The position numbers and the translations under genes were made by a program. Under the pieces are notes generated by a model. It was not told the origin of the DNA. It ran no database searches and worked only from the letters and a program-made list of their open reading frames with translations. From Strigomonas culicis (lineage: Eukaryota > Euglenozoa > Kinetoplastea > Trypanosomatida > Trypanosomatidae): a stretch of DNA of 20,478 nucleotides. Position 1 is the first letter of the stretch, and every line of letters starts with the position of its first letter. Where the stretch lies: contig AUXH01000349.1 of assembly GCA_000482145.1 (NCBI GenBank), positions 1-20,478 of the forward strand, written 5' to 3'. Positions 2,759 through 20,478 of this stretch are shown piece by piece.

Positions 2759-5700
2759 CTATACGCCAACGCTCACGTAGTAATCCAGCGCGCCCTGCGA
2801 CTGCATCTGCTCCTCCAGGTTCCCATTCAGCAGTCTGTCACGCTCCTCCGACACGATGCAGACGTCGAACTCGCCGAGGCTCCGCCAGCTGGTGCGGCCG
2901 GCGAGAAGGGCCGCCGTCGGCCGCGACCCCTCCGCCGCGGCGAGCGCCTCGGGGTCCACATCCGTGCGGCGCTGCAGCGGCGCGGCCGCGTCGCTGCAGT
3001 CTGTCAGCGAGCGCACGAAGAGCGGGATGGGGTACCTGAGGTAGTGGTACGTCAGCCGCTGGCTGCTGCCGGCGGTGTAGAAGGCGCCGCCGCGCTGCCC
3101 GGTTTGGTCCTCGCCCATCTCCGTCAGGAAGACGCCCTCGCCCTTGGGCGGCACGACCGGTCGCCGCCGCACCGGCGGGGACGCGGTGGGGGCCGTCACC
3201 TGCCACATGAAGGCGTAGGGCGGTGGTGGCAGGTAGCGCGTCGCGACGCCGCCGGCGCTGTCCATCCGCACGGTGCAGCAGCTGCCCACGTTCGTGACGG
3301 AGGCCGCGAAGTCGTGCGCGGCGGTCGCGTCCGTGACGCGGTCCGGCCACACTTGCCGTAGCGCGACGACGAGGTCGGTCGGCTGCGGGTGGTCGGCGTC
3401 CATCATGTCGTAGCGGTCCTTGCCGTCGTCGCCGACGGTGGGGCCCCACCCCGTGCACTCGCGCAGGGTGTACAGGAAGATGGACGAGAGCCGCGCGTCG
3501 ATGAGCAGCACGTCGGTAGGGGCCAGCAGCCGCCGCTGCGTCACGACGAGCACCACGGTGGGCACCCCGCTGCCGCGGCGGTGGCCGGCGGCGTCGCTGT
3601 ACTGCACAACGATGAGGTGCATGAGCGTCCACGGGCTGCGGAGGGCCGGCAGCCACAGCGCCGGCGGCATGTCCGGCTCCTCCATGCACACGCACTCCGC
3701 CGTCTGCATCAGGTAGCGCGCCGCGACGGACCCGGGCCGCAGCTGTTGAGAGAGGCTGCACAGGTCCGCCTTTGCCAGGCACCAGGCCACGGACGGTGCC
3801 GTCATGGGCGCGTCGAAGCACGTGGGCGGCGGGCTCGCCGGCAGGCCCTCGAGGAGGAGGCTCCGCACGAGGGGACTCGCGAGGCTCAGGGTGGGCGAGT
3901 TCAGCGTGGCCAGCCCGGAGTCGTGGTAGAACTTGAAGAGGCGCTTCCGTACGCAGTAAGCGACCCACTCGGCGCTGCGGCGCACCGTGACGGGGTCGCC
4001 GCTGAGCTCCATCAACGGCGAGGGCACCGCGCGCACGAGCGCGGCGAGCTCCTTCAGGGAGGACCTCGCGAGCACCAGCGGGCCCACCGGGCTGTGGTCG
4101 AGGTGCGGGTAGTGCACGACGTGGTCCGCCGAGGGCGCGAGCATCGAGAAGCGGACCATCCTCGCGAGGGTGTAGCGCTCGCGGATGGACACCTGTTCGT
4201 TCAGCAGCAGGATCAGCACGTACTTCTGGAAGACGCTGAACGCGAGCTGCGCCAGCTGCCCGTCAATGTTCGGCTTCGTGGGCGAGGCCGACGTGGCGGC
4301 GCTGCGCGCCATCGCGAAGAGCCCGTCGACCAGGTTAAACCCCTTCAGCGGCGCGCCCTCGCGCTGCACGCCGAGCTGCTGCCACGCGCTGCGCTGGCTG
4401 CGGTGGAACAGAAAGGCGCGCCGCCCCTTGGGGCCGTCCCGCGACAGCAGGAGGAGGTTCGCCTCGCTCGTCGGCACCGCGCTCGCGGCGTCCGCGGGCG
4501 CGCTGAGGCTGGCGCGGGCCGCCTGCCCGGAGTTCGCGCGGCGCTTGGCGGCCACCGGCCACGAGGCGGAGTCCAGCCGGCTCTGCGACTTGCTGATCCA
4601 CGCCTGGAGCAGCTCCGCCATGGCGACCACGCCGAGGTCACTGATGTCGACGTCCAGCAGCTCCGGCAGCTCCGGCAGCTCGTGCCCCTCCACCCCCTGC
4701 CGCCGGATCCAGTCGAAGCGCGTCACGTTGCGGCGCGCGCCGACCCCCACGTGTAGCAGCAGCAGCTCCTTCAGGAAGAGCGTCACGAGGCCGCGCAGCG
4801 ACGTGGCGGCCGTGGGCGAGGCCCCGTCCGCCCGCTGCTCCGCGGCCCGCGCGTCCTGCACCTCCGCGCGGAAGCGCGGCACGGTCGACTTCGCGGGCAC
4901 GTCCCATTTCATGAAGTACTCGTTCGACAGCAGCGCGGCGAGGTGCTGCCGCGGGTTCATGTCGATCCAGTCGACCGTCATGCCGCCCTGCACCAGCTCC
5001 TGCCGCGGGGAGCCGAAGCGCCACACGAAGGAGCTCACGTCGGGCGTGCTGATGAGGCACAGCAGCACGGGGAGACGGTTGCGATCGATGCTGTCTGGGG
5101 CGCCGTAGCTGCGGTACACGGCGATGAGCTGGTACAGCATGTAGGCGTAGCTGCGGGTGAAGCGGGTGCCGCTGCGCACGGCCAGGCCGTCCTGGTACGG
5201 CTCGCCCTCCATGATCGCGGTCGAGGGGGACAGAATGATCGAAATGCGGTGGCCCTTCTTGTCCGAGGCGCGCGCACGGAAGCAGCTGTGGACGAGCTCG
5301 AGCACCTCCTCCAGATCCTTCGCCGTGCGGGCGGGATGCACCTGGTGCGCCCACTGCTGCGCCTGCGACTCGAGCATCAGCTTGTCAAGCGTCGAGAGGG
5401 GCATCCACGTGCGGTAGATGAGCGGCACACACCGCCGCGCACAGTGCTCCTTCAGACGGTGGTACGAGTGCACCGGTGGGATCGTGTGCACCACACCGGC
5501 GCCGAAGTGGTCCTTGTACAGGCCATCCCCCGCGTCGACCTCGACGAAGGTGCGGGAAGAGGAGTCCTGAAAGGCCACCTCCGCGGTGCTCACACGGACC
5601 GTCTTGGCGTCCTTGACGGAGCGGAAGAAGTCGTAGCACAGCATCCGCGCCGTGCGCTCCGCCCCCTCGAGGTCGAACTGCGCCAGTCGGCGGAAGAACT

Positions 5701-8700
5701 GCACCACATTGGCGTTCTCCGTCAAGAAGGAGGTGCGATCCGTGCTGTAGGAAGACACCAAGTCTGCCTCGTCGCTGTGTGCGAACGAGTGGTGGGAGCC
5801 CCCTCCACTCATGCTGTCGGCCCCCCTCTCCTCCGTGAGGTGCGTCAAGAGGGCGTCGCCGGACTGCCGCATCGCGGTGCGCACCACTTCCTTTTGTCGG
5901 GCGGTGTCCTGGTGCCACAGATCGGTCGTGGTCATGATCTGCTTCAGCACGGCAAACTGCTTCGCGTTCATCCACTCCAGCTCGCGCGCGTAGAGGACGC
6001 CGCGCTGTGAGGACACGATGGTGGTGCCCTCAAACGCGCCCGTCAGCAGGACGAGCGAGAAGACACCTTGGAAGTACTCGGGCCAGCCGCAGGCAAAGTC
6101 CTGCAGCAGACACTCGGTCAAGTGCACCAGCGCGTAGAAGTGCTTGCACTCGCTCGTGAGGTCCGAAAAGCTCTGCGGGGCAATGCGCGCGGCCAACTCG
6201 TGCGACAGGCACGTCATGTTGTGGAAGTACGGATCCAACACATCGTTGCGGAAAAAATGGCCCAGCTTGATGTGCTCCACGAAGGCGAGCGTGGCGGCGG
6301 TCTGCTCCATCGCCGGCTTCAGCGTACCCCACACCTCCCACTGCTTCTTCCGGAACCCCTGCTTCTGCATGGCCAGCTGCATCAGCTGGGTGTCGTGGTA
6401 GTCCACGTCACTGAGCAGCGTATCGATCTGTATCAGCATGTCGTCGCCCTTGTCGGCGATCTCCTGGAGATCCAAGCTTATTGTCTCGCAGGCCACCGCA
6501 TGCACCTGCCGCAGCAGCTTCAGCTCCTCGTAGAAGCGATTGCGGCGCTGCTGCACCTCCACGTGGATGTCGTTCTTCGTGCTCGCGGAGGGGAGGCAGT
6601 CGTAGATGAAGTGCTCGTACCGGAAGGAGGTGGAGATGGGCTCGTCAAGATGAATCACGTCCATCCACTGCGGCACGTTCGTGTGCGTGCACACGTACGA
6701 CGAGTTCGTCGTGCAAATGAAGAAGAACTTGGGGCTGACCTCCACGTCGCGGCCCAGCACGTGGTACTTGAACCGCTCCGTTCGCCCCGCGCGGTAGTGG
6801 TTATTCAGCACCTCCGCGAGGGGCATGAGCTCGCGTATCGTGTCGAACACCTCCTTCATGTGCACATCGCGAAGCAGCACGCCCTCGCCGCTCGTCAGGG
6901 ACTGCACGAGGTGCTCCGTGAGGGCGGTCTGACTCATGGTGGCCGACACGACGTGCACGCTCGTGCACTCCACGCTCAGGTACTCCTTCAGTATTGACTC
7001 GTAGGTCGCGCAGGCGCCGCAGAAGAGCAGCCAGCGGCAGGAAAGGCGCTCCATGCAGGAGAAGAGGCCCATCTGGTGGCGGAAGGGCAGCGTCGTCGGC
7101 GCAAACATCTCCATGCGGCGCGTGTGGGCGTGGAAAAGGAGCGGCCGGACGTGGTCGGCCGGGAGCGGCGACGACGCCAGGCCGTGCTTCTTCAGCACCT
7201 TGCGCAGCTCCTGGTAGAGCCCCGCCGCCCGCGCGCTGGTCTGGAAGGCCAACAGGGTGTAGAAGGCCGAGAGCATGATCACGTCGCCTGCGGCAAACGT
7301 AGCCGCCTCCGACTGCTGCTTCACCGCAGCCACGTCGATGAAGCTGGTGAACCGGTCCACCAGGCTCACGTACCTGGTCAGCCGCTCTCCACGAACCGCG
7401 AAGTCCTTTTCTCGCTTGATAAGAAGTGCGTGATGGTCCTGCTCCGCCTCCATTTTGGACTGTGTCCGCTCCACCTCTTCTTGCATGAGGTCGGCCTTTT
7501 CCTCGAGCGCCTTGATCTTCTCTTGATGCCGCGTTATTTCCTCCTCCTCCGCAAGGGCGGCCAGCACAGGCTCAAAGTCATGGACCCGTCGGCGCACGTG
7601 ATCAATGAAGGCGATTATGTACTCCGCCAGAAGCTGTGCGAAGGGCGACGCCTCATTGTAGCGAACCGCAGACAGCTCCTGCTGGAACACCACCAGCGGC
7701 GCCACGTCCTGCACCTCGTTGGGGTTGAGGGACGTAAAGCGCTGCACGAACTCCTGCGAGCACACGAGCTTCTGCCCCGCACTCCACAGCTCGCTCGGGC
7801 CGTTGTTGCGCTTGGGCAACTCCTCGCCGAGTATCTTGTAGATGGCGCGCATGAGGAGCGCGCCCTTCTCCGGCAGCCGCATGGTGCTCATGCTACGGAT
7901 CTGCCCCAGCTTCACGCGCCGCAGGGCAGACACCGCCGCCGCAAGGGTATCGTCCGATTCGGTTTGCTCGTCCTTCACCTTGTACTCCCTCGCACAAATG
8001 TCCTCCTGTTTATCCCGCAACAGCACCCGTTCCGCCTCCGCTGCATTTCTAAAAGCCACCTCTGCCTCTCCCAACTCGGCCTTACTCTGCTGCAACGTCA
8101 GAATCTTCTTCGCCGCGTCTTCTAGCGCACTAGCCATATCCTTCACACGCGTGGCGTCCGTCTTGAGCTGCGCGGATGCCTCGTCGCCCCGCGCCAGCGT
8201 CAGGGTCGCGCTGCAGTGGGTGGACCACATGCGTTCCAGCACGCGCACCGACATCTCCCGTGTCGCGTGCGCGAAGGCCAGCAGCATCTCGGTCGTCATC
8301 CCTCTGCACTGGCTCTTTACGCACTCGTACATCTCCGCGATGACATCGATGAGCTTCTCCTCCGTCAAGACAGACCGCACGTCCGGGCCGGTGGCGTGGT
8401 ACGCCGCCCGCGTCTTGCCCACCGCGCCAACGAGCTCTCGGTGCAGCCGCATCTCCAACGCGGTCGGAACCAGCATCACACCGGGCGTGTCCTGAAAAAA
8501 GGGACTGTCCACACCCAGGCGCTCCTTCTCCGAGGCGTCATCGATCTGAACAATGAAGCTGAAGCAGCGCCGCATGCGACGTCGCAGGTCAAAGTCATCC
8601 GTGAAAACGGCACTGCGGAGGGTGCGCTGCTGGGTCAGCTGAAACCCCTTGGCCAAGGTGACTCGCTCTGCGTCCGTAAACATGGTGGACACATCGCCTA

Positions 8701-11700
8701 CCCGCGCGATGGCGTCGAGTGTATTCACGATGCCCTGAACCTTGATCAGACTCTTGGGCACATACACGATGAAGCGAACATCTGCCACCATGGCCAGCTT
8801 AATAACGGCCCGCATCTCCTTCTTGAAGAGCTCCACGCTGTAAACACCCTCTTCACCTCGCATCATGATAAGGGGCAGCTTCTTGGCGCAGCTGACAAGC
8901 CGCAGCAGGCGATGGACACCGAAGGTCGACGTGCCCAGCAACACGCGGTGAGGCTCCGCGACCGACTGCACTGCCTCCCCCAGCCGTATCGCTAGCACGG
9001 TCAGCCACGTCGTCTGATGCGTCGTGGAGAGCGCCTTGGGGGGGTGGAACAGGTGGCCCATGTTAGCGAACGCGCCAAGCTGGGGCACCGCGCTGTTGCC
9101 GCTCAAGGCGCTGGAACGCCGACTTATGGACGGTCGACGCCTTGTCGCGGAGTTCGCGCGACTGCGAGGCGCCCCTTCCGGCCGCGCCGGGGGCGCCTCC
9201 CCGCTGCCGGCGGCGCTCATCATGCCTGGGGCAATCGTCGCCACGATGCTCGTGTTCGCGGCGGTCCCGTAGGATATGATGGTCGACTGCAGCGCGCTGT
9301 CTGCCGTGGGTTCCCTCTCGTCGTCGGCAGCCGGTCGCCCGCTCGCCGCACCGCCCTCGTTCGCCCACAGCCGCCGGAGGGGCTGCTCGATCACCTCCTG
9401 GTGTCCCATCTCCAGCTCCGCAATCCAGTCGGCGACGCTGTCCCAGTCTTTCGCGGATGCGGTGTCCAGCGTGGAGGCGGTCTTCGTCACCCTGTCGAGT
9501 GCAGCACTCAGCGACTTCTCCATTCCCTGCGATGATGAGCCGTCGAGCAGCACCTGCTGCGCCATGTTGCTGAACCCCGAGCGCATGGCCGTGATGGGCT
9601 CGTCGTTTGTCCCACACCGCCGCAGCACCGTGTGGTAGTACTTGAAGATGGCGGACACGGTGACCTCACACAACTGCATATCGGAAGCGGCGGTCGCCAA
9701 GTTCTGCCGAACGTAGTCCACGACGTGTAGAAACTCTCGGAAGCGCTGTGGGAGCCGTCGCTGCAGCATGCTGAAGTGGTGGGGCGAGCTCACCTCGTCC
9801 CGCAGCTCGCCCAGCGTCTGGAGAAAGAGCGAGTGCCAGCGCACGACGGCCTCCGACCACTGATCCGCAAATCCATCCGCGCGCTTGCGCCCGCAGGCGG
9901 CTTCGAACAAGGCGTGCACGCCCGCGAAGATTTCACTTCCCTCGAGCGGCGGCAGGTGCATCTGAATCGTCGACCGCGCCACCGCGGGGTCGACCTGGGC
10001 GCCTGCCGCCGGCAGCAGCGACGAAAAGGCAAAGGCCAAATCCGTCACAGGGATCATGCCGTGCGAGGGAGTGCAGATCGCCTTGTGCTTGGCGACGTAG
10101 GCCAGTAAGGCGCCCGCCAGCCCTGTGACATCCTCCCGCCCCTCCGGCAGCGGCGCCGTCGAAAAGACAGAGTCGGGCATGGACAAGTGGACGTCGTCGA
10201 TAACGACAATGAGACGGCGGCCCACCGACGGACCGTAGCGCCCGTCGCTGCGCAGCAGCAGGCGCTCGTAGATACCGTCCTGCATCATTGCTGGGGAAAA
10301 GCGCTGGTTGGCGCTCGTCGTCAACGGGATCCATCGGTCACACAGACGCACCGTCTGAAGCAGCGTCGTTTTCCCGCAGTCCGCTGCTCCCCGTAGCCAC
10401 ACGCTCTGGCCGCAGTCCAGCATGTACTCTGCCGCCGTCAGCAGCGGCACGCGGGAGGCCATGGGGAAGAGGAGCGACCAGGCGTGCACGGAGGGGTGGA
10501 TGTAGCTGAAGCTGGCCCACTTGCAGGAGAACCCCATACGGCTCGCCTCCGCAAACGTCTTCCACCCGACCGGCGTACTGAGGAGGGTCAGCACGCTCGC
10601 CGCCCCATCCTCCAGTGGAGGCAGCACCCGCTCTAAAATCGACCAGCGCTCCGCCACTTCGTGCGCAAGGTCGTCCTCCACCGCCTGCAGCGCCTCCGCG
10701 AGGATGCGAGACATGTTCTGGTCGGTCGGGCCTGTGAAGCCCACGCACCAACAAGCCGCAAAAATGGCAGTTCGGATGGCGAAGAGAGCGTCATTTATTT
10801 CCACGTTCTCCTCGTCCAGGGACGCGGTAGCGGCCACCACCTCATTGGCGTAGGGAATCCACTTGGAGTAGAGACTGCAGCACTGATGACACAAAATGGC
10901 GAAATCCTCGAGCGCGATACAGTTGTGCGCGTCCTCCGGTTCCGTCGGGCTGCATAATTTGCCCGTTGTCGCCTCCAGAAGGGATGGAAGGATCACTAAA
11001 AACACGCTGAGCGCCTCCTCCTTGTTCGGCGCGTCGCACAGACAATCTTGCAGATAGTCACGCCAGTCCGACTCACACTCAACGTAGAAGAGAACCACCT
11101 CTGCCGCCCAGCGAGGGTTCGCAGCTGTCATGCTCTGGGTCGTCATGATGACGCGATGATTTGCGTTGACGGCAGTGTTCTTGCCCGCGAGAGAGATGGT
11201 GCCAATCGCGGGCCATTGCATGGCACTGGACGACATAAACCGGCCGCACTCGACCACGAGATGGTGCGCCTCTTTGCTCGCCTCCACATTCTTCCGCACT
11301 GCACGCAGCAGTCCACCTTCCGCATCCTTGCCGTAGACGTCTTCAGTGGTGAGAAGAGATGGGTTCAGTACCGTATACTTGGTCGAGCCCATCCATTGCT
11401 TCCACAGCTTCGTCTTGCCCGAAAACGCGGGGCCTACTAACGCGATGCAGCTAACAGAGCTGCGCATCGTGCTGCTAAACCGATCCATCTGACCCTCCTC
11501 TCCATACTCCTCTTGTGTAGACTCGTACAACGCGGTGAGAAAGCTGGGGTCCAGCTCAAACGTTTCCACCACGTGGTACTCAAACAGCCGCTGTAGCTCT
11601 TCCTCGTCGCACAGCACACGGTCGAAGGTCAGCCAAAACGCCTCGCAGGAGCACTCTCGCAACGTCTCACGTGACCAGCTGTCTGCCTGCAGGCAGCGGA

Positions 11701-14700
11701 AGAGGACCATCACCAAGCCGCCCATGGTAAACAAAGATGGCCGAAGCTCCTGAAACTGGGCATACAGGAAAGCGAACTGCTCCCACCAGGTATCGACGCC
11801 GTCGTTCTCCGTCAAGTGCAAGATACCGCGCGTGAACAGAAACCCGCGTGTCAGATCGCGCAGAGGGACAGGCACGGTCGAGATGGGCCGGTACTCCACC
11901 GCCAACGAATGCGGAAGGGTCGAGTAGGAGCTCGTCGTCAGCAGGCACATGTAGTTCGCGTTCACACGCACATCCACCGGTGCGCCGTGCGCCCCCAGTG
12001 GTAACGTGACCGGTGTGTCTTCCTTGCCTGAAAGCAGCGCCGCCCGTGCCGTGCGCAAACAGAGCTGCATAAACTCTTCCACTTCTGCACTGCTGCCGTT
12101 CTCGTAATCTTGCAGGCAGAGCGTGAATCCACCGAGCAGTGTAGCTCGCATGAGCGGCCGCAGGATGTCCACCGTCATTCCCTTGAAGCAATGCTGATGA
12201 ATCATGCGCCTTCCGAGGATGGAGCTGATGGCGCCAAGAACTTGCTTCTGCTGTTGATAATCGCCACGCAGCAGCGGCACACTGACCGACAGGGCGCAGA
12301 AAAGGGTGCGGCTCTTTTCAAGAATATCCGGCGAAAGGTACGCTTCCGCGTGTCTGCCTAACAACTCCATGCCGTAGGGAAGTGACATGCCAAGTGTGCG
12401 GACGTCAATGCCCGTCGTTGTCAAATGCGTTTGCAGCATGGCAGTCGAGTTGAGCTCCCCTGGGCTTGTCACACCCGCCTCCATCGCCAGTTGCACCTCA
12501 TCGCGCATGTGCTTAATGTAGCCTATGCTCGCTGCAAGGTGGTTCTGCTCCGCCTTTGGACACCCGGGGCTGGTGGAGATGCGACAGAACTCCTCCAGCA
12601 AGTCTGCCAACTTCGACTTGTACGCAGTGAGACCGCTGGCGCCCCCGAGGCGCAGCGCGTCGTGCATGTCTCTCGTGTGGTTGATTCGTAGTGCCAGATT
12701 GGTGAGCTGCGGAAACCACTCTCTTGCCCACGTGCTCGTCTCACAGCGGCGGAAGGCCGTTGCGCAGGCGCGGACGGCGTGCAGCAGCGAGGCGCACAGC
12801 GTCTGCTCGAACTGCTCCATGAATGGTACGATGGGCATATTGACTAGCCTGATCGGTGTCACGGCATGGATCGTATACCCCTCCTCCGACACAAACCCCA
12901 CAATGTAGCCATCCTCGGTGCGGACGGAGGCCAGTTGTGCGTACATAAACGGCAGAAGCTCACGCAAACGCTCCACGTTGAGTGGAGTGAGAATGGAAAT
13001 GAGCTGGTCATCGGTCAGGAAGTTGAAGCGTGCAAACTTGGATCGCATATTCTCCATCTCACTTCGTAGCAGCTCGATCGTGTCTTCGATGGACGTCTTG
13101 CATATGAGGAGCTGCTCCGCTACAGAGTCCTGCACAATGGCCGTGTATAGCGAGAACTGTGCCTTTTTTAGCATGGCGTTTAATGCCGCCACAGCGTCTT
13201 CTGCGTGTTTCAGCTTCTCCATCACCACCTTGACATTGAAGGAAACGGTCCACGTTCCTTTTTGGACCGTCTCGCGGAGGAGATTGAGGAAGCCCAGCTG
13301 CTGCTGATAGCGCTCCATGTGAACCGTATACGCGAGCAGCACATCACGCGCCTTCTCCGTTGTCGCCTCCCACTCTCCTAGGGCGCTTATCACAACATAC
13401 GTCAGCTCGGGACGGCGGCGCAGCGAGCGACACGAGCGGATATAGCCCTCCAACTGCGCCAGTATACTCTGGTAGCAGTTTGGTGTTATTCTGGTGAACA
13501 AAAGACCGCCGGCACTACGTGTCGTGTGGAGCTGAAAGTACGTCTTCTTGGCGGAGCTCTTCATGGCCTCCAAAAGGCTCTCAACCTCATAATCATTCCA
13601 GGCAAGGGAGGTGATGCGAGAGACCTCTGCCAAGTGGTCAAGGATGCCCGCATCTAGTAGCCTCTGGAGTGTTATGCTGTTGTCCGTGACAGTGTGTGTG
13701 TCTTCCCCTAGCTTGGCCGCAAGTAGGCGCGAAATCTCCTTCCAGTGGTTCTTGCGCAAACCGGGCGTGGTGAGGATGCGAAGAAGGCTATCCAAGTCTT
13801 CGAACCTTGCCAGCGCCGCCTCCTGCTGCACGCCAAGGCGAACGAGTGGCTGATAGGCACGCACACTCCGCGTGGCATTGTGGAGCAGACGTCGCCATGT
13901 TCGCACGGACTCAATCATCTCTGTTGCGTTAAGATTTGATATGGAACATGTGTAATACGATCGCATCTTCCCAATATGATTAATCGTGGTCCAGTACTGC
14001 TCGATAATTTCAAAATGATTGAGCAAAGGGTAGAAATCGTCAAACCGATCGACCACTTTGATGTCAAGTGAATTCTCTTGATACATAATCGTGTTGATTT
14101 CTTCCTTAACCTGTGTCGTAAGAATCCGGAGCTCTGCGCACGTCTGTGCGGCTATATCGCAAATATCTAAGTTGAACATGTTGTATAGTTCCGTCACACC
14201 CGTTGCCAATGTTCTGATATTGTCCCGCACATCCTCGCGCATCACTGTCAATTTATTCTCCAAAAGGGGGCGGCAGTTCAGCTTCGATTGCTCTGCACTG
14301 TCGCAGTCTTTTAACAGCTCGTCGGGCCACTTCATTAGCCGTAATGCCGAGTAATACAACTCGTGTTCAACGGGCACTTGGCACTCCTCCAGACAATGAA
14401 TTTTAGAAATGACTAGGGTGCACTCGTTTTCTCTAAGCGAGTTTGCCATCTTGGCGGCAGAGGCAGTAGCCTCGTAGTACTTCTCCAGCTCGCGAACAGT
14501 AGTGGGTGTCTTTTGGAGCATCTTTTGGACTTCAATGCACTGCGCCTCCGCAGTATCAATTATTTCGTGAATTGCCTCGTGCAAGTCCTTGTACATTTTC
14601 TGCAAAAGAGACTCCCATTTAGACCGGTACTCATCCTTAATCACCTTGCAGCGAATGGAAACACAGCCACAGTAAACAATATCTGGCGTGCAGTGAGGAA

Positions 14701-16315
14701 TGCCGTAAATGCCTTCTTTCAGGCGTGAAATGAGGTCCTGCACTTCAGCTGCGTCGCCATGTTTTGCCAAGTGCAAGTGAAGGACTGGAAGCGAAACATA
14801 TGGAGCATAGGAAGACGCAATCAGATCTATTGTGCGTCCAATTTGCTCAATGATGTTCATGACAAATGTTCGCAAGAAGTTGATTTCCGTGACCGTGACA
14901 ACTGAAATCGGATGACAGTTCAAGTTTAGTGCCCTCAAGATGACAGCCTCCACCTGCGGAAAGGAGTTGGCCTTCACAAGAAGATCATCAAAAATTTCAG
15001 ACAAACCGAACAAGAGCGCCGCAAATGACGGTGACCGTGGCTGATAGTTTTCACCAATAACCATCTCTATCGCTAAAACTGGATGTTTTTGAGCAATCAC
15101 TTTTGCGATCTCCCCTCCTTTGGTGCCGTTGTACTGGAAAAAATGAATCATGTTTTCCAAATTGTAAAAAATAAGTTCGCGGATCTGGTTGATAAAAAAA
15201 ACACGGGTCGCTACAAAAATTTTCTGAAACGCACTGGACCGTAGCTCGTCTTCCTCCATTGTCAAGATGGACTTTGAATTTTCAATATACGAGAAGAAAA
15301 ATTCCTCCACATAAGAGTAAAACTCAATTCGGATTCGCGTAAATGCGCCTTGCATGGAGCGGCTCATTTGAGACAAGAATTCACTGGCGCGTGTTTCCCA
15401 TTCAGTCGTACTAAGGTCAAAAATGACCAAATGGCGAAATCGGTTCTCCCATAGTGCTTTGATCGCAAGAAAGTACAACTGGCTGCCACCACTCCATAGT
15501 TGGCTCTTTTCAAGGACACTCTTGGCAGTTTTAAAATTACGTTTTGCCTCTACTGCAGTATCCTCGTCCAAGCGCAATAATTTGGAGGATCTAGGTTCTG
15601 GGGCCAGCTCTAATTGAAGTGGTGCCAGTAGCTCGCAAACTTTTGCACTTTTGCACATGTAAAAGTGAATTGCTTTCCCTATCCATCCAACGTACTCATC
15701 TCTGAGTAAACTAATTTCGCGAACCACGTGATTCTTATAGCCTTCACCGAACCCTTTCGTGGCTAAAATAACGATGCTGCGCAAGCTGTTGGAATTAATT
15801 GCAGCAAACTCCTTTATAAGAGGTTCATACAAAGCAACTAATTTTGTCATTCGTAAATGCTTCCTATATTCGTAGAGGATCTTCTCGTCTACAGTTGTCC
15901 CTTCATCATCTTCCTTCTCGCAATTCTCGGAAGGAATGCGAGCTTTAACTAAATCGCTAGGAAGTGATTCTTGTATAAGTGTTAACTTTTTAGGTGTGTC
16001 TCTGACAATATAGTTCCCCACAAGAGGCGAATAATGAGAACCAATACGAGAACTCATCGAGTTAGAGCAACCGGAATCTTTTATGAATAGTGGCGTAAAA
16101 GGAAGGTCATTATTTACATGAGCTGATTCTAACTGAACATCTCGAATATTTCCATAATAATCTGGAGAGTAATTCAGCTGTCTGAGTAAAAATGTTCTCG
16201 TCCGTCGCTCATTTTCGCGTTGAACAAAAGGGGGTGTAGGAACACCGTCCCAATAAAAGCGAAGAACTCTTTCAAATCGGCCGAAGGCCTTTTCTTTACT
16301 TTTTTCTCTATCCAT
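2759..16315 (-). CDS. Divergent axonemal-type dynein heavy chain with degenerate AAA1 and AAA4 ATP sites
   Basis: 4518 codons, TAG at 2759-2761. The start is the first in-frame ATG (16313-16315, MDREKSKEK); the 37 open codons before it are polypyrimidine tract with no ATG. Visible order: stem (1 to about 750); linker with FARFNFLTDDQLISIL near 1095; AAA1 from YGMELLG (1314); AAA2 P-loop GPAFSGKT (1628-1635); AAA3 P-loop GAADCGKT (1976-1983) and Walker B VVIDDVHL (D2040-D2041); a disordered Ser/Arg-rich insert (about 2318-2418); AAA4 (from about 2459); stalk coiled coil CC1 (about 2710-2800), microtubule-binding domain (about 2800-2910) and CC2 (about 2913-2965); AAA5; a very divergent AAA6 and C-terminus. 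In AAA1 the P-loop position reads RGDYQQQK (1350-1357) and the Walker B position LQDYEN (1401-1406). In AAA4 the P-loop position reads GTSTFGVH (2461-2468). AAA3 (TTSANQ, RYGPSVGRR) looks axonemal rather than DYNC1/DYNC2. Ordinary dyneins walk on axonemal microtubules; this one probably cannot be a normal motor. Function unknown. Confidence 0.92.
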   Translation of the reverse strand: MDREKSKEKAFGRFERVLRFYWDGVPTPPFVQRENERRTRTFLLRQLNYSPDYYGNIRDVQLESAHVNNDLPFTPLFIKDSGCSNSMSSRIGSHYSPLVGNYIVRDTPKKLTLIQESLPSDLVKARIPSENCEKEDDEGTTVDEKILYEYRKHLRMTKLVALYEPLIKEFAAINSNSLRSIVILATKGFGEGYKNHVVREISLLRDEYVGWIGKAIHFYMCKSAKVCELLAPLQLELAPEPRSSKLLRLDEDTAVEAKRNFKTAKSVLEKSQLWSGGSQLYFLAIKALWENRFRHLVIFDLSTTEWETRASEFLSQMSRSMQGAFTRIRIEFYSYVEEFFFSYIENSKSILTMEEDELRSSAFQKIFVATRVFFINQIRELIFYNLENMIHFFQYNGTKGGEIAKVIAQKHPVLAIEMVIGENYQPRSPSFAALLFGLSEIFDDLLVKANSFPQVEAVILRALNLNCHPISVVTVTEINFLRTFVMNIIEQIGRTIDLIASSYAPYVSLPVLHLHLAKHGDAAEVQDLISRLKEGIYGIPHCTPDIVYCGCVSIRCKVIKDEYRSKWESLLQKMYKDLHEAIHEIIDTAEAQCIEVQKMLQKTPTTVRELEKYYEATASAAKMANSLRENECTLVISKIHCLEECQVPVEHELYYSALRLMKWPDELLKDCDSAEQSKLNCRPLLENKLTVMREDVRDNIRTLATGVTELYNMFNLDICDIAAQTCAELRILTTQVKEEINTIMYQENSLDIKVVDRFDDFYPLLNHFEIIEQYWTTINHIGKMRSYYTCSISNLNATEMIESVRTWRRLLHNATRSVRAYQPLVRLGVQQEAALARFEDLDSLLRILTTPGLRKNHWKEISRLLAAKLGEDTHTVTDNSITLQRLLDAGILDHLAEVSRITSLAWNDYEVESLLEAMKSSAKKTYFQLHTTRSAGGLLFTRITPNCYQSILAQLEGYIRSCRSLRRRPELTYVVISALGEWEATTEKARDVLLAYTVHMERYQQQLGFLNLLRETVQKGTWTVSFNVKVVMEKLKHAEDAVAALNAMLKKAQFSLYTAIVQDSVAEQLLICKTSIEDTIELLRSEMENMRSKFARFNFLTDDQLISILTPLNVERLRELLPFMYAQLASVRTEDGYIVGFVSEEGYTIHAVTPIRLVNMPIVPFMEQFEQTLCASLLHAVRACATAFRRCETSTWAREWFPQLTNLALRINHTRDMHDALRLGGASGLTAYKSKLADLLEEFCRISTSPGCPKAEQNHLAASIGYIKHMRDEVQLAMEAGVTSPGELNSTAMLQTHLTTTGIDVRTLGMSLPYGMELLGRHAEAYLSPDILEKSRTLFCALSVSVPLLRGDYQQQKQVLGAISSILGRRMIHQHCFKGMTVDILRPLMRATLLGGFTLCLQDYENGSSAEVEEFMQLCLRTARAALLSGKEDTPVTLPLGAHGAPVDVRVNANYMCLLTTSSYSTLPHSLAVEYRPISTVPVPLRDLTRGFLFTRGILHLTENDGVDTWWEQFAFLYAQFQELRPSLFTMGGLVMVLFRCLQADSWSRETLRECSCEAFWLTFDRVLCDEEELQRLFEYHVVETFELDPSFLTALYESTQEEYGEEGQMDRFSSTMRSSVSCIALVGPAFSGKTKLWKQWMGSTKYTVLNPSLLTTEDVYGKDAEGGLLRAVRKNVEASKEAHHLVVECGRFMSSSAMQWPAIGTISLAGKNTAVNANHRVIMTTQSMTAANPRWAAEVVLFYVECESDWRDYLQDCLCDAPNKEEALSVFLVILPSLLEATTGKLCSPTEPEDAHNCIALEDFAILCHQCCSLYSKWIPYANEVVAATASLDEENVEINDALFAIRTAIFAACWCVGFTGPTDQNMSRILAEALQAVEDDLAHEVAERWSILERVLPPLEDGAASVLTLLSTPVGWKTFAEASRMGFSCKWASFSYIHPSVHAWSLLFPMASRVPLLTAAEYMLDCGQSVWLRGAADCGKTTLLQTVRLCDRWIPLTTSANQRFSPAMMQDGIYERLLLRSDGRYGPSVGRRLIVVIDDVHLSMPDSVFSTAPLPEGREDVTGLAGALLAYVAKHKAICTPSHGMIPVTDLAFAFSSLLPAAGAQVDPAVARSTIQMHLPPLEGSEIFAGVHALFEAACGRKRADGFADQWSEAVVRWHSLFLQTLGELRDEVSSPHHFSMLQRRLPQRFREFLHVVDYVRQNLATAASDMQLCEVTVSAIFKYYHTVLRRCGTNDEPITAMRSGFSNMAQQVLLDGSSSQGMEKSLSAALDRVTKTASTLDTASAKDWDSVADWIAELEMGHQEVIEQPLRRLWANEGGAASGRPAADDEREPTADSALQSTIISYGTAANTSIVATIAPGMMSAAGSGEAPPARPEGAPRSRANSATRRRPSISRRSSALSGNSAVPQLGAFANMGHLFHPPKALSTTHQTTWLTVLAIRLGEAVQSVAEPHRVLLGTSTFGVHRLLRLVSCAKKLPLIMMRGEEGVYSVELFKKEMRAVIKLAMVADVRFIVYVPKSLIKVQGIVNTLDAIARVGDVSTMFTDAERVTLAKGFQLTQQRTLRSAVFTDDFDLRRRMRRCFSFIVQIDDASEKERLGVDSPFFQDTPGVMLVPTALEMRLHRELVGAVGKTRAAYHATGPDVRSVLTEEKLIDVIAEMYECVKSQCRGMTTEMLLAFAHATREMSVRVLERMWSTHCSATLTLARGDEASAQLKTDATRVKDMASALEDAAKKILTLQQSKAELGEAEVAFRNAAEAERVLLRDKQEDICAREYKVKDEQTESDDTLAAAVSALRRVKLGQIRSMSTMRLPEKGALLMRAIYKILGEELPKRNNGPSELWSAGQKLVCSQEFVQRFTSLNPNEVQDVAPLVVFQQELSAVRYNEASPFAQLLAEYIIAFIDHVRRRVHDFEPVLAALAEEEEITRHQEKIKALEEKADLMQEEVERTQSKMEAEQDHHALLIKREKDFAVRGERLTRYVSLVDRFTSFIDVAAVKQQSEAATFAAGDVIMLSAFYTLLAFQTSARAAGLYQELRKVLKKHGLASSPLPADHVRPLLFHAHTRRMEMFAPTTLPFRHQMGLFSCMERLSCRWLLFCGACATYESILKEYLSVECTSVHVVSATMSQTALTEHLVQSLTSGEGVLLRDVHMKEVFDTIRELMPLAEVLNNHYRAGRTERFKYHVLGRDVEVSPKFFFICTTNSSYVCTHTNVPQWMDVIHLDEPISTSFRYEHFIYDCLPSASTKNDIHVEVQQRRNRFYEELKLLRQVHAVACETISLDLQEIADKGDDMLIQIDTLLSDVDYHDTQLMQLAMQKQGFRKKQWEVWGTLKPAMEQTAATLAFVEHIKLGHFFRNDVLDPYFHNMTCLSHELAARIAPQSFSDLTSECKHFYALVHLTECLLQDFACGWPEYFQGVFSLVLLTGAFEGTTIVSSQRGVLYARELEWMNAKQFAVLKQIMTTTDLWHQDTARQKEVVRTAMRQSGDALLTHLTEERGADSMSGGGSHHSFAHSDEADLVSSYSTDRTSFLTENANVVQFFRRLAQFDLEGAERTARMLCYDFFRSVKDAKTVRVSTAEVAFQDSSSRTFVEVDAGDGLYKDHFGAGVVHTIPPVHSYHRLKEHCARRCVPLIYRTWMPLSTLDKLMLESQAQQWAHQVHPARTAKDLEEVLELVHSCFRARASDKKGHRISIILSPSTAIMEGEPYQDGLAVRSGTRFTRSYAYMLYQLIAVYRSYGAPDSIDRNRLPVLLCLISTPDVSSFVWRFGSPRQELVQGGMTVDWIDMNPRQHLAALLSNEYFMKWDVPAKSTVPRFRAEVQDARAAEQRADGASPTAATSLRGLVTLFLKELLLLHVGVGARRNVTRFDWIRRQGVEGHELPELPELLDVDISDLGVVAMAELLQAWISKSQSRLDSASWPVAAKRRANSGQAARASLSAPADAASAVPTSEANLLLLSRDGPKGRRAFLFHRSQRSAWQQLGVQREGAPLKGFNLVDGLFAMARSAATSASPTKPNIDGQLAQLAFSVFQKYVLILLLNEQVSIRERYTLARMVRFSMLAPSADHVVHYPHLDHSPVGPLVLARSSLKELAALVRAVPSPLMELSGDPVTVRRSAEWVAYCVRKRLFKFYHDSGLATLNSPTLSLASPLVRSLLLEGLPASPPPTCFDAPMTAPSVAWCLAKADLCSLSQQLRPGSVAARYLMQTAECVCMEEPDMPPALWLPALRSPWTLMHLIVVQYSDAAGHRRGSGVPTVVLVVTQRRLLAPTDVLLIDARLSSIFLYTLRECTGWGPTVGDDGKDRYDMMDADHPQPTDLVVALRQVWPDRVTDATAAHDFAASVTNVGSCCTVRMDSAGGVATRYLPPPPYAFMWQVTAPTASPPVRRRPVVPPKGEGVFLTEMGEDQTGQRGGAFYTAGSSQRLTYHYLRYPIPLFVRSLTDCSDAAAPLQRRTDVDPEALAAAEGSRPTAALLAGRTSWRSLGEFDVCIVSEERDRLLNGNLEEQMQSQGALDYYVSVGV

Positions 16316-16665
16316 TACTCCTGTGCGTTCAAGACGGTAATAATTATCATCATAATAAATAAATAAAAAAAGTAAATGAAAGAAGAGGAAGATGAAAAGG
16401 AAAAGAGACGTGAAGTAAAATAACACTCAAAACACATGTAAGAAATGAGGACAAGCGAAAAAAAAAAAAGAATCAAACAAACATTGATATATAAATGTTG
16501 ACATTATCTCTTATAAAAATACAGAATTTAGAATTAATCTCATCCACAGAGAATTTATGTAAGTATGGAAAAGGAAAAAGTCAACAAGTGGAACTCTCGT
16601 GCAAAAGAAGGATATTAATCAACAGAGAATCAAAACCTCAGTTTGATAAAAAGTACGGAAGGTCT
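16316..16665. other. Intergenic region between the 162-aa gene and the dynein-like gene
   Basis: This 350-bp AT-rich gap should carry the 3'UTR of the 162-aa gene and the splice signals of the dynein-like gene. It has a plus-strand A-run near 16459-16470. A short plus-strand frame at 16495-16692 has no recognisable features and reads against the transcription direction, so I do not call it a gene. Confidence 0.65.
16321..16415 (-). promoter_or_regulatory. Pyrimidine tract and putative trans-splice acceptor for the dynein-like gene
   Basis: The minus strand from about 16415 to 16376 is a C/T-rich tract. The first AG after it is at 16322-16321, within GCACAG. That leaves only five bases (GAGTA) before the ATG at 16315. 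An alternative upstream acceptor follows a T-run near 16450 (AG near 16429) and would give a 5'UTR of over 100 nt. Confidence 0.5.
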
Positions 16666-17154
16666 CTACCGAATAACAGGCTCATCACATAGCTTCTGGA
16701 AATCAAACCGATATTCTTGACACTGTTTAACTTGATCTAAAACGAATTCAAGCCATGCCAGTTGTGTCACCCCTTCTTCACAGTGGTGCGCTTTAATGCG
16801 CTTAAGCTCATACTCGTAATCTTCAATTGTAATACAAATCCTATTACGCATCAGCATACCACGGCAGGTGTACAAAATGCCAAATAAAACAATGCCCATA
16901 CTCAATGCGGGAGGAATAGGTCTCGCGTAGTACATACTGTTACGAAAAATGTGTCTAGGACCCCATAGCTTAAAAACTGCAAGTACACTGACGGTAGAAA
17001 AAGACACCGAGCCTACAAAATACTGCCATGCTAAGCTTTGATGGTGAGCTAACCTCTCCACTTTATTTGCAATATTTCTTCTTTGAACCCTGGACACTTC
17101 TGTGACATAGTTGGAAAACTGTATCCTGGTCTCATCTGCTTCTGTTTTTTTCAT
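16666..17154 (-). CDS. Small protein with two membrane segments, possibly PLGRKT-like
   Basis: 162 aa, from ATG at 17152-17154 to TAG at 16666-16668. An N-terminal charged amphipathic region (1-40, including QRRNIANKVERLAHHQ) leads into a hydrophobic segment at about 44-62. A short basic loop containing GPRHIFRN follows, then a second hydrophobic segment at about 80-98 (IPPALSMGIVLFGILYTC) and a charged C-terminal tail with EDYEYELKRI. The size, helix-AW-TM-loop-Pro-TM layout and charged tail recall the PLGRKT/DUF2368 family of small two-pass membrane proteins. That likeness is by eye only and weak. A mitochondrial or other organelle membrane subunit is equally possible. It is the second gene in the transcription unit and clearly AT-richer than the genes farther left. 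Confidence 0.7.
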   Translation of the reverse strand: MKKTEADETRIQFSNYVTEVSRVQRRNIANKVERLAHHQSLAWQYFVGSVSFSTVSVLAVFKLWGPRHIFRNSMYYARPIPPALSMGIVLFGILYTCRGMLMRNRICITIEDYEYELKRIKAHHCEEGVTQLAWLEFVLDQVKQCQEYRFDFQKLCDEPVIR

Positions 17155-17720: not shown

Positions 17721-18159
17721 TATTCAGCTGCACAGAGGTGAAAACTGTTGTAATATTGTAATGAATCAAAGAAGAATATAGAGTGACAGAATTATAAATA
17801 TCCATTCCACTCAACAAACACTCCACAAACCTCTGCACCCATATGCTTTATCAAAAGAAAAACAGGGCTTAAATAGGTAAAACGCTAAATCCGTCAAAGA
17901 AACGAGAGCGAACAAATGAAAATCCATTCACGCGCCCTAACGTAAAACACAAAAGAACCTTCTGCAGAGAAAAACAATTTCTTCAGAAACAGCGAAAGAG
18001 AACAAAAGAAAAAAAAACAAGAATACACAAGAATCATGTTAAGTTTAAAAAAAAAAGGCAGTCATCACCAGCAGCCAACGCACCAACTAAACAAATCAAA
18101 AAAAAAAGGCACAACCCACATTAATCATAAACGCCTCGCCATCCACAGCGGCGTTGGCA

Positions 18160-18560
18160 AAAAAGAAGCCGTGTCGCCCCGCGGCCCCCCGCCTCGACGG
18201 CACCCCAACCCCACAACGCAAAAAAAACGCACGCGAACCCACGGCCCCCGCAACGCCCCTCGGACAGAAAGCGCTTATGAAAACGCCCGGCGCCTCGCCG
18301 CCCGCTCAGAGGGGTCGCAGGGAGGCGGGTTGGGGGCGCCCCGCCCCGCCCGAGCGCGCCTGGCGCCCGGAGACCCCGTTACGCCGGGGCCCGCCCCCAC
18401 CCACGCGACGAGGGCCGCCGAAACCCAGCCCCCCGCCCCCCAACCCCGCGGGCGGCGCGGTTCGCCCCGGGCAAACAGACGCCGCAGCAGAAAAAACAGA
18501 AAAGAAAAAGATCGCCCGGGCATCCGCCCGCTTTCGCACGCCGCCGACGCGCCAAGAATA
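18160..18560. other. GC-rich, C/A-skewed non-coding block
   Basis: This is an abrupt island of very high GC with C-runs of up to six and interspersed A-runs, flanked by AT-rich DNA. Frames are open on both strands because stops are rare in such composition. The translations are Pro/Arg/Ala- or Gly/Arg-rich with no domain, so I treat it as non-coding. On the minus (transcribed) strand it is G/T-rich, compatible with a start-region element for the leftward unit. Confidence 0.5.
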
Positions 18561-18944
18561 GGGCGCCCCTTTTGCGCGGCCCAGCCCACTGAAGAAGACC
18601 CCCTTTAAAAGAAAGGCCAGTTCAATCAGTTAACACCCTCATCAGAATTCCACACAGTTATCATTTCTGGGAACCTTTTTCTGAAAGACAAACACCCTCC
18701 TCCCCATAACCCTTTCACCTCATCATGAACGCCAAAAGGAAGGCCTGCACCACATAGATAAACCGCCCGCGCCTGGCCCAAGGGCACCCACTCTACAAAA
18801 GGGAATGCGCGGAAAGAAAACCAAGCACCCTTTAATAAAAAACAATAATGGTGCAGCCTCAGCAGAAGTGAAACAAGATGTGTTTTTCCCAACTAAGAGA
18901 GGGGGCCCCCCTCTCCTCACGCCGCCCCCGGGGTCATCGTGGGC

Positions 18945-18972
18945 GCGCCCCTGGCCGGCGCAAAAGCGCCCC
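18945..18972. repeat. GC-rich hairpin element, copy 1
   Basis: Bases 18945-18964 match 20160-20179 at 17 of 20 positions without gaps, sharing GGCCGGCGCAAA. Each copy then closes a hairpin. Here GGCGC (18957-18961) pairs with GCGCC (18966-18970) across an AAAA loop. The surrounding sequences are otherwise unlike, so this is a dispersed element and not a segmental duplication. Confidence 0.6.
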
Positions 18973-19060
18973 GAACGTAAAAAGCACCACCGCAGCAAAA
19001 GAAGAGAGCGCCCACAGCCCCAGGAATGGAGCAACAAGAAAGAAGTATAATCGTAAACGG

Positions 19061-19095
19061 GGCGGCGGCGCTGCGCCCTTCGGAACGATACCGCC
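19061..19095. repeat. GC-rich nested hairpin
   Basis: GGCGC (19067-19071) pairs with GCGCC (19073-19077) around a very tight loop. An outer GGCGG (19061-19065) can pair with CCGCC (19091-19095). The 3' side reads GCGCCCTTCGG, similar to GCGCCTTCGG at 19971-19980. It sits in otherwise A-rich DNA. Confidence 0.5.
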
Positions 19096-19963
19096 GAAAG
19101 AGTTATTATTTGCAAAGACCTCCTAAGTGAAAAGAATTGCCCTTTTGTATAATACTTCCCGGGCCCCCCGCGCCTTGGAACGGCGTAGATCCTCTTATTC
19201 CGCAGCGGCCCCCTCTTCACATGGCACGCGGCGTACGATTTGGCAATTCAATTCGCGGCAAACTAAAATGAGAATTAAGGAGAGAACGGTACATTTCATT
19301 CCGCGTGAGTGTTTACATGATTGATACATCACAAGCGATGGAATACATTAAACCACCCAATTGTTATTCTCCTATTTTTCGGTATTAAGTTCACCTTAAA
19401 ATATTTTGCTATACAGTACCTCATGCGATGTGCGAGAAAGAGGTTCTCTATCTCCTCAAAATCCAAGGATCCCTGTCGTGGCGGGTCGCGGGGTTGGGCG
19501 TGGGGGATTTTCGAAAGAAAGAAAAAATGTTCTTTAAAGTGCAGAAGAAGAGGACCAAGCGAGTAAACAAATTCATCATCATGTACATTCACGTTCGAGA
19601 ACTAATCGTTCTCTTCTGCATTACGCACCTTGCCTACTCCGTAATTCCATTTTCTCCGCGAGCTACAAAAATAACAATGAAGATAGTCAATTGCCTAATA
19701 CATCCCGTCGTTTGTGATGTTGTAAAGATAAAAACACTCACCAGTGTGAAGAAAATACTGCCCTTACTTTTCTAGAACTCTTCATTGTTTGTACGAGTGT
19801 CATTGCGTTATTCTTTTGCAGGGGGCTCCATTTTTTTTCCCACGTTGACAGGCAGGGGGCGTTGGGCAACATGGCCGCACACGCGGGGATGGGGAAGCAC
19901 ACCAATGCCTAACAATTGGGAAATGGGCTTTGGGGTTGATCTTGCTTTCTTTTTTCATCCGGG

Positions 19964-19996
19964 GGCGCGAGCGCCTTCGGCGGGTCCTTCGCGAAG
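19964..19996. repeat. GC-rich hairpin followed by a perfect palindrome
   Basis: GGCGC (19964-19968) pairs with GCGCC (19971-19975) across GA. Eleven bases later CTTCGCGAAG (19987-19996) is a perfect 10-bp palindrome. The GGCGC/GCGCC stem recurs at 18957, 19067 and 20172. Confidence 0.5.
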
Positions 19997-20159
19997 CCAG
20001 GGGCGGTTTTGTTTTTTGGGGGGCCAAATTGTACTTCGCGGCCGTGATTGCGGCCGGCCGGCCTCGGCGGTGGCTGGTTGTGTTCCTCGTGTGTCCTTTG
20101 GGCGGGGCGGGGGGCCCTTTTTTTCTTTTTGCGAGGCCGCGTGGCATGGTTTGTCGGTG

Positions 20160-20189
20160 GCGCCTTGGGCCGGCGCAAATTGGCGCCCA
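20160..20189. repeat. GC-rich hairpin element, copy 2
   Basis: This is the second copy of the element at 18945. GGCGC (20172-20176) pairs with GCGCC (20183-20187) across AAATTG. It is in the same orientation as copy 1 and differs from it mainly in the loop and in three of the first ten bases. Confidence 0.6.
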
Positions 20190-20271
20190 GGTGTTTTGTG
20201 AAGCATCGGGCCCCTGCCACGAAGTTGTTTTGTTTCCTGGTTATGAGGAATGCAATCTTTTTCTTTTTTTT

Positions 20272-20280
20272 GGGGGGGGG
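20272..20280 (+). promoter_or_regulatory. Run of nine G on the plus strand
   Basis: A T-rich stretch is followed directly by nine consecutive G at 20272-20280. Poly-G tracts near transcription start regions are reported in trypanosomes, orientated with transcription. Here that would indicate rightward transcription. The role is inferred. Confidence 0.35.
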
Positions 20281-20347
20281 CCTCCCTCTTGTGATGTTTT
20301 TTTGTTGTTTCCATTTCTTCACAAATATTTCGCTCGGGCAGCGGGGC

Positions 20348-20380
20348 GGCGTGGGCGCGGCGTGGGCGCGGCGTGGGCGG
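20348..20380. repeat. 11-bp tandem repeat, three copies
   Basis: GGCGTGGGCGC repeats at 20348-20358 and 20359-20369, then as GGCGTGGGCGG at 20370-20380. A separate copy of the last form is at 20411-20421. With neighbouring G-runs (GGGCGGGTGGG at 20375-20385) the tract has near-canonical G-quadruplex potential on the plus strand. Confidence 0.85.
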
Positions 20381-20478
20381 GTGGGCTCATCAGAGCCAAG
20401 GAGGGTGGGGGGCGTGGGCGGTTTCCTGGGTTCTGATTGCCTTTTTCGTGGGGCGCTCGCTGGGTGGTGGCGGGCGGT

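Follow-up and report, generated by a model that had tools for sequence, protein, structure and literature searches.

The window, by which we mean the whole stretch of 20,478 nucleotides analysed here, encodes on its minus strand a dynein heavy chain whose AAA1 motifs are lost, and both the protein and the loss are conserved in other trypanosomatids, together with motifs of AAA2 and AAA3, the stalk and the tip. We lean towards the view that this is a trypanosomatid family of full-length heavy chains devoid of the AAA1 engine, nearest to the inner-arm groups, and that it probably acts as a pseudo-motor, a tether or clutch.

The window is contig C349 of a host genome assembly of 17.7 Mb in 670 contigs, and most of its minus strand is occupied by a single open reading frame. 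The coding sequence (2759..16315, minus strand; ATG at 16313-16315, TAG at 2759-2761) specifies 4518 amino acids plus the stop, counted from the ATG, from which all residues are numbered below, and contains no internal stop. The start methionine (residue 38 of P0001) is nearly invariant in a 13-member alignment. The product displays the features of the dynein heavy chain superfamily, namely a DHC_N2 linker, AAA modules, a stalk and a microtubule-binding tip. Pfam detected DHC_N2 (2.6e-35; linker region at 12764..14023, minus strand, E 6.1e-37 in the genome search) and AAA_7 (3.4e-9) and gave sub-threshold matches to AAA_8 (E 0.0046) and AAA_9 (E 0.0063); it listed no match to AAA_6, which corresponds to AAA1, at E values up to 1, and did not detect AAA6. 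Third-position GC along the open frame (2759-16426, minus strand) is 0.41 over the opening 500 codons and reaches 0.93-0.96 at codons 3500-4500, and some other host chains, L014 and L021 among them, show weaker gradients in the regions retrieved; since orthologues align along the length of the protein, the gradient is not an obvious chimera. Five other open reading frames of the window, regarded as possible genes (1200-2231, 16666-17154, 18723-19220 and 19909-20478 on the minus strand, 18036-18608 on the plus strand), gave no Pfam match at E 0.1.

The AAA1 module (11507..12409, minus strand) is degenerate. When a profile of the family was compared by hhalign with a profile of the 13 intact heavy chains of the host genome, 239 columns of the two AAA1 modules were aligned (98.8%, E 8.2e-17). 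RGDYQQQK (residues 1350-1357; 12245..12268) was placed under the Walker A sequence GPAGTGKT, LQDYEN (1401-1406; 12098..12115) under the Walker B sequence FDEFNR, and LTTSSYSTLP (1459-1468; 11912..11941) under the sensor-1 segment TMNPGYAGR, all on the minus strand, with the YGMELLG anchor at residues 1314-1320. As controls, approximate stretches of canonical AAA2, AAA3 and AAA4 and five column shuffles of AAA1 gave 0.1-2.8%. Because the AAA1 alignment is strong and the controls are low, the position of AAA1 is secure and its motifs are gone. A first-pass annotation had described this AAA1 site as dismantled and proposed a profile search as a check; every motif was found at the position it gave, and the profile-profile alignment confirms the loss of Walker A, Walker B and sensor-1. 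A conventional dynein motor requires the AAA1 Walker A and Walker B, and the window protein has neither; the loss of these motifs gives good support to the prediction, also made there, that the product should not be a conventional motor. A structure model of AAA1-AAA2 (mean pLDDT 50) is too weak to describe the AAA1 pocket, and the 50 Foldseek matches listed for it, the first being AAA1-AAA3 of dynein-1, were all dyneins with TM-scores of 0.21-0.25, which carry no weight beyond homology.

Such a loss is exceptional among the heavy chains searched. A DHC_N2 search of the host genome returned 14 heavy chains, 13 of which contain GPAGTGKT, the window gene being the only one without it, and an AAA_6 search recovered 13 of the 14 together with one weak non-dynein match. 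Three protein searches supplied 218 other proteins, of which 211 contain a GPxGTGKTE-type site; the remaining seven comprise four with a variant P-loop that conforms to GxxxxGK[ST], two with apparent gene-model gaps at this place and one with an insertion there. A Walker B resembling FDEFN[RK] was matched in 201 of the same 218 proteins, the other 17 being uninspected. The insertion belongs to P0112, the dynein heavy chain 7 of Polyrhizophydium stewartii, in which about residues 1245-1627 split the AAA1 P-loop (GTGK / TETTKDL); its record carries matches to PF05203 and PF05204, presumably domains of the homing-endonuclease type, and the insertion resembles an intein lodged in the catalytic site. 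A second degenerate dynein was considered on contig C418, where the weak AAA_6 match lies, and was rejected: none of the 14 DHC_N2 genes is located there, and the open reading frames read as midasin/Rea1. The frame in question, of about 4588 amino acids, which we take to be midasin/Rea1, gives weak matches to both the AAA_6 and the AAA_7 dynein domains.

Relatives of the window protein were retrieved in three steps. A search with residues 700-2300, in which the 1449 candidates sharing most words were scored, gave four relatives at 29-34% identity, including Trypanosoma vivax TRVL_04993. The T. vivax protein, used as query, added sequences from T. brucei equiperdum, T. grayi, T. theileri, T. 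melophagium, T. cruzi marinkellei, T. cruzi and T. conorhini, as well as P0018, and a search with an eight-member profile added Leptomonas pyrrhocoris, Leishmania mexicana, L. braziliensis and six further sequences. In this last search, 18 listed family members scored 3116-5930 bits, against 410 bits for the next protein; P0011, P0012 and P0017 contributed to the profile yet are not among its best 120 matches listed. An apparent absence of the family from Leishmania was an effect of search sensitivity, since L. mexicana, L. braziliensis and Leptomonas were recovered once a profile served as query. The family as recovered here has 22 members, the window protein and 21 relatives, with predicted proteins of 3570-5304 amino acids, and further members may exist; the shortest (P0016, T. 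cruzi, 3570 amino acids) is probably truncated. The named members are called 'hypothetical', 'uncharacterized protein' or 'Dynein heavy chain' in the databases.

The AAA1 loss is common to nearly the entire family. GxxxxGK[ST] is absent from AAA1 in 21 of the 22 members, and the hhhDE pattern of Walker B in all 22. The only member with a P-loop is P0018 (ENA, 32.5-kb contig; 22% identity over the alignment), which reads GSWGVGKT at this position but has ED in place of DE in Walker B, an apparent intermediate state. AAA_6 is still recognisable in some relatives, with E values of 1.1e-13 in P0018, 2.5e-11 in T. vivax (P0005), 1.4e-7 in T. b. equiperdum (P0011) and 0.015 in P0004. The first-pass annotation had argued from the length of the open frame that the gene is maintained; this is now reinforced by a loss common to 21 of 22 members and by long predicted proteins in all of them. 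No close relative with an intact AAA1 P-loop, which that annotation had named as evidence against its reading, was found in these searches, and P0018 branches before all other members.

The remaining modules show a different pattern. The AAA2 P-loop is kept in the window protein (GPAFSGKT, 11411..11434) and in 18 of 22 members, GxxxxGK[ST] being missing in P0002, P0005, P0013 and P0014. AAA3 retains the nucleotide-binding motifs of a conventional motor: its P-loop (GAADCGKT, 10367..10390) has G[KR][ST] counterparts in all members, with GK[ST] in 18 and GR in P0002, P0003, P0135 and P0136 (the pattern accepted A as the first G, as used by P0130, P0134 and P0138), and its Walker B (VVIDDVHL, 10184..10207; AAA_7 at 3.4e-9) fits the strict pattern in 19 of 22 members, with the DD pair present in all 22 on reading the alignment; a pattern for the AAA3 Walker B matched only 6 of the 13 intact chains of the host genome, too few for a comparison with them. 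By contrast, the AAA4 module (8627..8950; sub-threshold AAA_8) has no P-loop, another feature of a conventional motor, either in the window protein or in any other of the 22. At the level of sequence, then, the loss in the family is specific, with AAA1 and AAA4 gone and AAA2 and AAA3 mostly kept. The stalk coiled coils and microtubule-binding domain (7307..8329, tip at about 7622-7939) aligned with the canonical dynein stalk at 98.6% by hhalign. An AlphaFold2 model of this region built from four rows (mean pLDDT 86, pTM 0.50) shows the order coiled coil, tip helices, coiled coil, and a Foldseek search with it gave dyneins in all of the first 40 rows, with query TM-scores of 0.30-0.65 and including the inner-arm stalk 8i3j, and also matched the microtubule-binding domain entries 3err, 6rzb and 2rr7. 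An AAA5-like segment follows (6692..6961; sub-threshold AAA_9), and the AAA6/C-terminal part (2762..5839), which has no dynein Pfam match and 20-21% identity among nine representatives, is poorly conserved; all these features lie on the minus strand. The strong divergence of AAA6 and the C-terminus counts against assuming an intact six-module ring.

We placed the family in a tree of the linker region comprising 51 rows (22 family members, 13 other chains of the host genome and 16 other dyneins; LG+C20+F+G4 by PMSF). The family forms one clade (support 100/100) on a long stem of 1.58 and, rooted with the other dyneins, P0018 is sister to the other 21 members (100/99). The place of the window protein among the 13 non-Trypanosoma members is not fixed by the tree, and its position fits a trypanosomatid that belongs neither to Trypanosoma nor to a Leishmania-type genus. 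A 100/99 branch separates 15 rows, consisting of DNAH2-, DNAH10-, DNAH14- and cytoplasmic-type chains and the host chains near them, which leaves the family on the side of DNAH1 and DNAH3/7/12, its attachment within that side not being fixed; DNAH7, 12, 1 and 3 are also among the top ten in a profile search of the PDB. The tree program cautioned about the long branch of L022, which groups with cytoplasmic dynein with L023 and L024 beside it, and about unusual composition in P0004, P0130, P0137, L022 and P0219. On the simplest history, AAA1 was lost once, after P0018 had branched off and before the Trypanosoma and Leishmania-type lineages separated.

Between closely related members, conservation of AAA1 is similar to that of the rest of the protein. 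Its identity is 0.89 between T. cruzi and T. c. marinkellei (0.88-0.93 in 11 of 12 other comparable parts, 0.75 in the twelfth), 0.87 between T. theileri and T. melophagium (0.63-0.92 in other parts) and 0.81 between L. mexicana and L. braziliensis (0.64-0.85). Across nine representatives, the linker (0.39), the tail (0.35-0.37) and the tip (0.36) are best conserved, and the values fall to 0.27 in AAA1, 0.20-0.21 in the C-terminal parts and 0.19-0.21 in the stalk helices. By linker branch lengths the family changes rapidly, about 2.4 times faster than the single canonical chain available for comparison: the window protein and T. cruzi are 1.59 substitutions per column apart, and the corresponding path in that chain is 0.67. 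Fast evolution can mean relaxed constraint.

In dynein, AAA1 hydrolysis powers the linker swing, and the nucleotide state of AAA3 gates microtubule release; in known dyneins AAA3 is regulatory and AAA1 is required for motility. In the tether or clutch that we favour, the AAA1 ATPase site would have been lost before the Trypanosoma and Leishmania-type lineages diverged; without nucleotide binding and hydrolysis there, the protein would produce neither a power stroke nor a linker swing, and we infer an absence of motility. The conserved tail would dock the heavy chain onto a fixed structure or a partner, while the conserved stalk tip would touch a microtubule. Nucleotide control, if any, would pass through a nucleotide bound at AAA3, that at AAA2 being structural, and the protein would link microtubules as a tether or clutch without pulling on them; any flagellar location is putative. 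Since AAA2 is lost in four members and AAA3 reads GR in four of 22, gating by AAA3 may not be universal. A narrower version, in which the common ancestor dropped AAA1 and AAA3 alone sets the grip of the tip, would make the family a class of nucleotide-gated microtubule clutches, or switchable crosslinkers; we propose this only tentatively.

Three other roles appear less likely than a tether or clutch because of the points against each. The protein could be an inactive partner, a dead subunit among live ones that pairs with an active heavy chain or brakes an arm, and the tail and linker, being among its best-conserved parts, are what would be expected of an assembly surface. The nearest profile relatives are, however, inner-arm chains, which act as single heads, and the 96-nm repeats 9e5c and 9y6s yielded no orthologue; although a heterodimer of heavy chains has been reported for the trypanosomatid IFT dynein (Blisnick 2014, as cited in the available text of PMC7394968), we consider this role unlikely. 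A residual motor, whose ATPase cycle passed to AAA3, with or without AAA2, once AAA1 had gone, would also fit the retained stalk and tip and the retained P-loop and DD pair of AAA3. This is improbable given the regulatory place of AAA3 and the need for AAA1 in known dyneins, the GR for GK in AAA3 of four of 22 members and the missing AAA4 P-loop in all of them. The rapid evolution and the weak Pfam matches of the motor would be those of a fast-decaying relic, a 'ghost gene' as proposed for vertebrate DNHD1 (in the part of PMC8754002 available to us), but long predicted proteins persist in 22 members over deeply split lineages, the AAA3 DD pair is present in all of them, and sequence conservation is seen in tip, linker and tail, which makes a relic more doubtful still. 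Finally, an assembly or gene-model artefact in the host genome, for which no supporting evidence was found, is hardly credible: 20 relatives from other sources (ncbi, uniref, nr, eukprot, lgn) share the loss, and relatives with the same loss rule out assembly error as the cause of the missing AAA1 motifs.

The first-pass annotation had also suggested a structural axonemal arm. No support for this emerged: none of the heavy chains in the 96-nm repeats of T. brucei (9e5c) and L. tarentolae (9y6s) as deposited, the file omitting chains of unknown residues, was recognised as an orthologue, which argues against a regular structural arm at that repeat. With a five-member profile the best chains scored 242.6 bits (9e5c) and 215.6 bits (9y6s), like human, bovine and algal paralogues. 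In Leishmania, the accessible text of a 2025 preprint (PMC12637542) assigns one outer-arm (ODA) and seven inner-arm (IDA) axonemal dyneins and describes ten heavy-chain deletions in L. mexicana. The 13 intact chains of the host genome would be accounted for by ten axonemal chains, two IFT chains and a cytoplasmic one, a match in number in which the chains are not paired individually; the window gene is a fourteenth heavy chain and appears to lie outside the assigned set. A T. brucei screen reported loss of fitness for 12 of 13 dynein heavy chains (PMC9464253), among which, in the portion available, an orthologue of the window gene is not identifiable. The survey of T. brucei and L. major by Wickstead and Gull (2007) relied on HMMs specific to each group and on a score threshold intended to exclude 'extremely divergent sequences' (PMC2239267, in the text accessible), below which this family may have fallen. 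No description of an AAA1-less heavy chain in kinetoplastids was found in the literature searched, which leaves out most subscription journals and is partial for most papers, nor any localisation, phenotype or biochemistry for a family member; ideas on the flagellum attachment zone (PMC7394968) and on proximal-distal differences (PMC11971395) showed no link to the window gene in the text available.

AAA1 hydrolysis is taken as the defining step of dynein. In a family kept without AAA1 across the split between the Trypanosoma and Leishmania-type lineages, nature has uncoupled the body of dynein from its engine, which would permit the roles of tail, AAA3 and tip to be tested without a power stroke; P0018, with its AAA1 P-loop, offers a before-and-after comparison. 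The window gene also appears to be an unassigned heavy chain in cells whose axonemal dyneins were otherwise counted and deleted singly (PMC12637542, in its accessible part).

Among known systems, the nearest concept is vertebrate DNHD1, likened here by description and not by sequence. Its name did not occur among the best 120 matches listed in each of two relative searches, many of which are nameless. Like the window protein, DNHD1 is an orphan heavy chain of full size that stands apart from the motor set, termed a 'ghost gene' (PMC8754002), and mutations in it are reported to cause sperm-flagellum defects (PMC9916431), so that, as far as the available text of these papers goes, an orphan heavy chain can matter for the flagellum. 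The single-headed inner-arm dyneins (DNAH1, DNAH3, DNAH7, DNAH12 and the trypanosomatid IDAs) are homologous to the family in linker, AAA1 position, stalk and tip. They differ in that they have the AAA1 P-loop and FDEFNR, whereas the window family lacks both, and their distance is reflected in a best PDB match of 256 bits (five-member profile) against 3116-5930 bits for the 18 listed members (eight-member profile), a rough comparison as profiles and databases differ. In laboratory AAA1 mutants of cytoplasmic dynein, losing nucleotide binding or hydrolysis at AAA1 abolishes motility. Those are single engineered changes, whereas in the window family the whole site has been replaced and the replacement is inherited.
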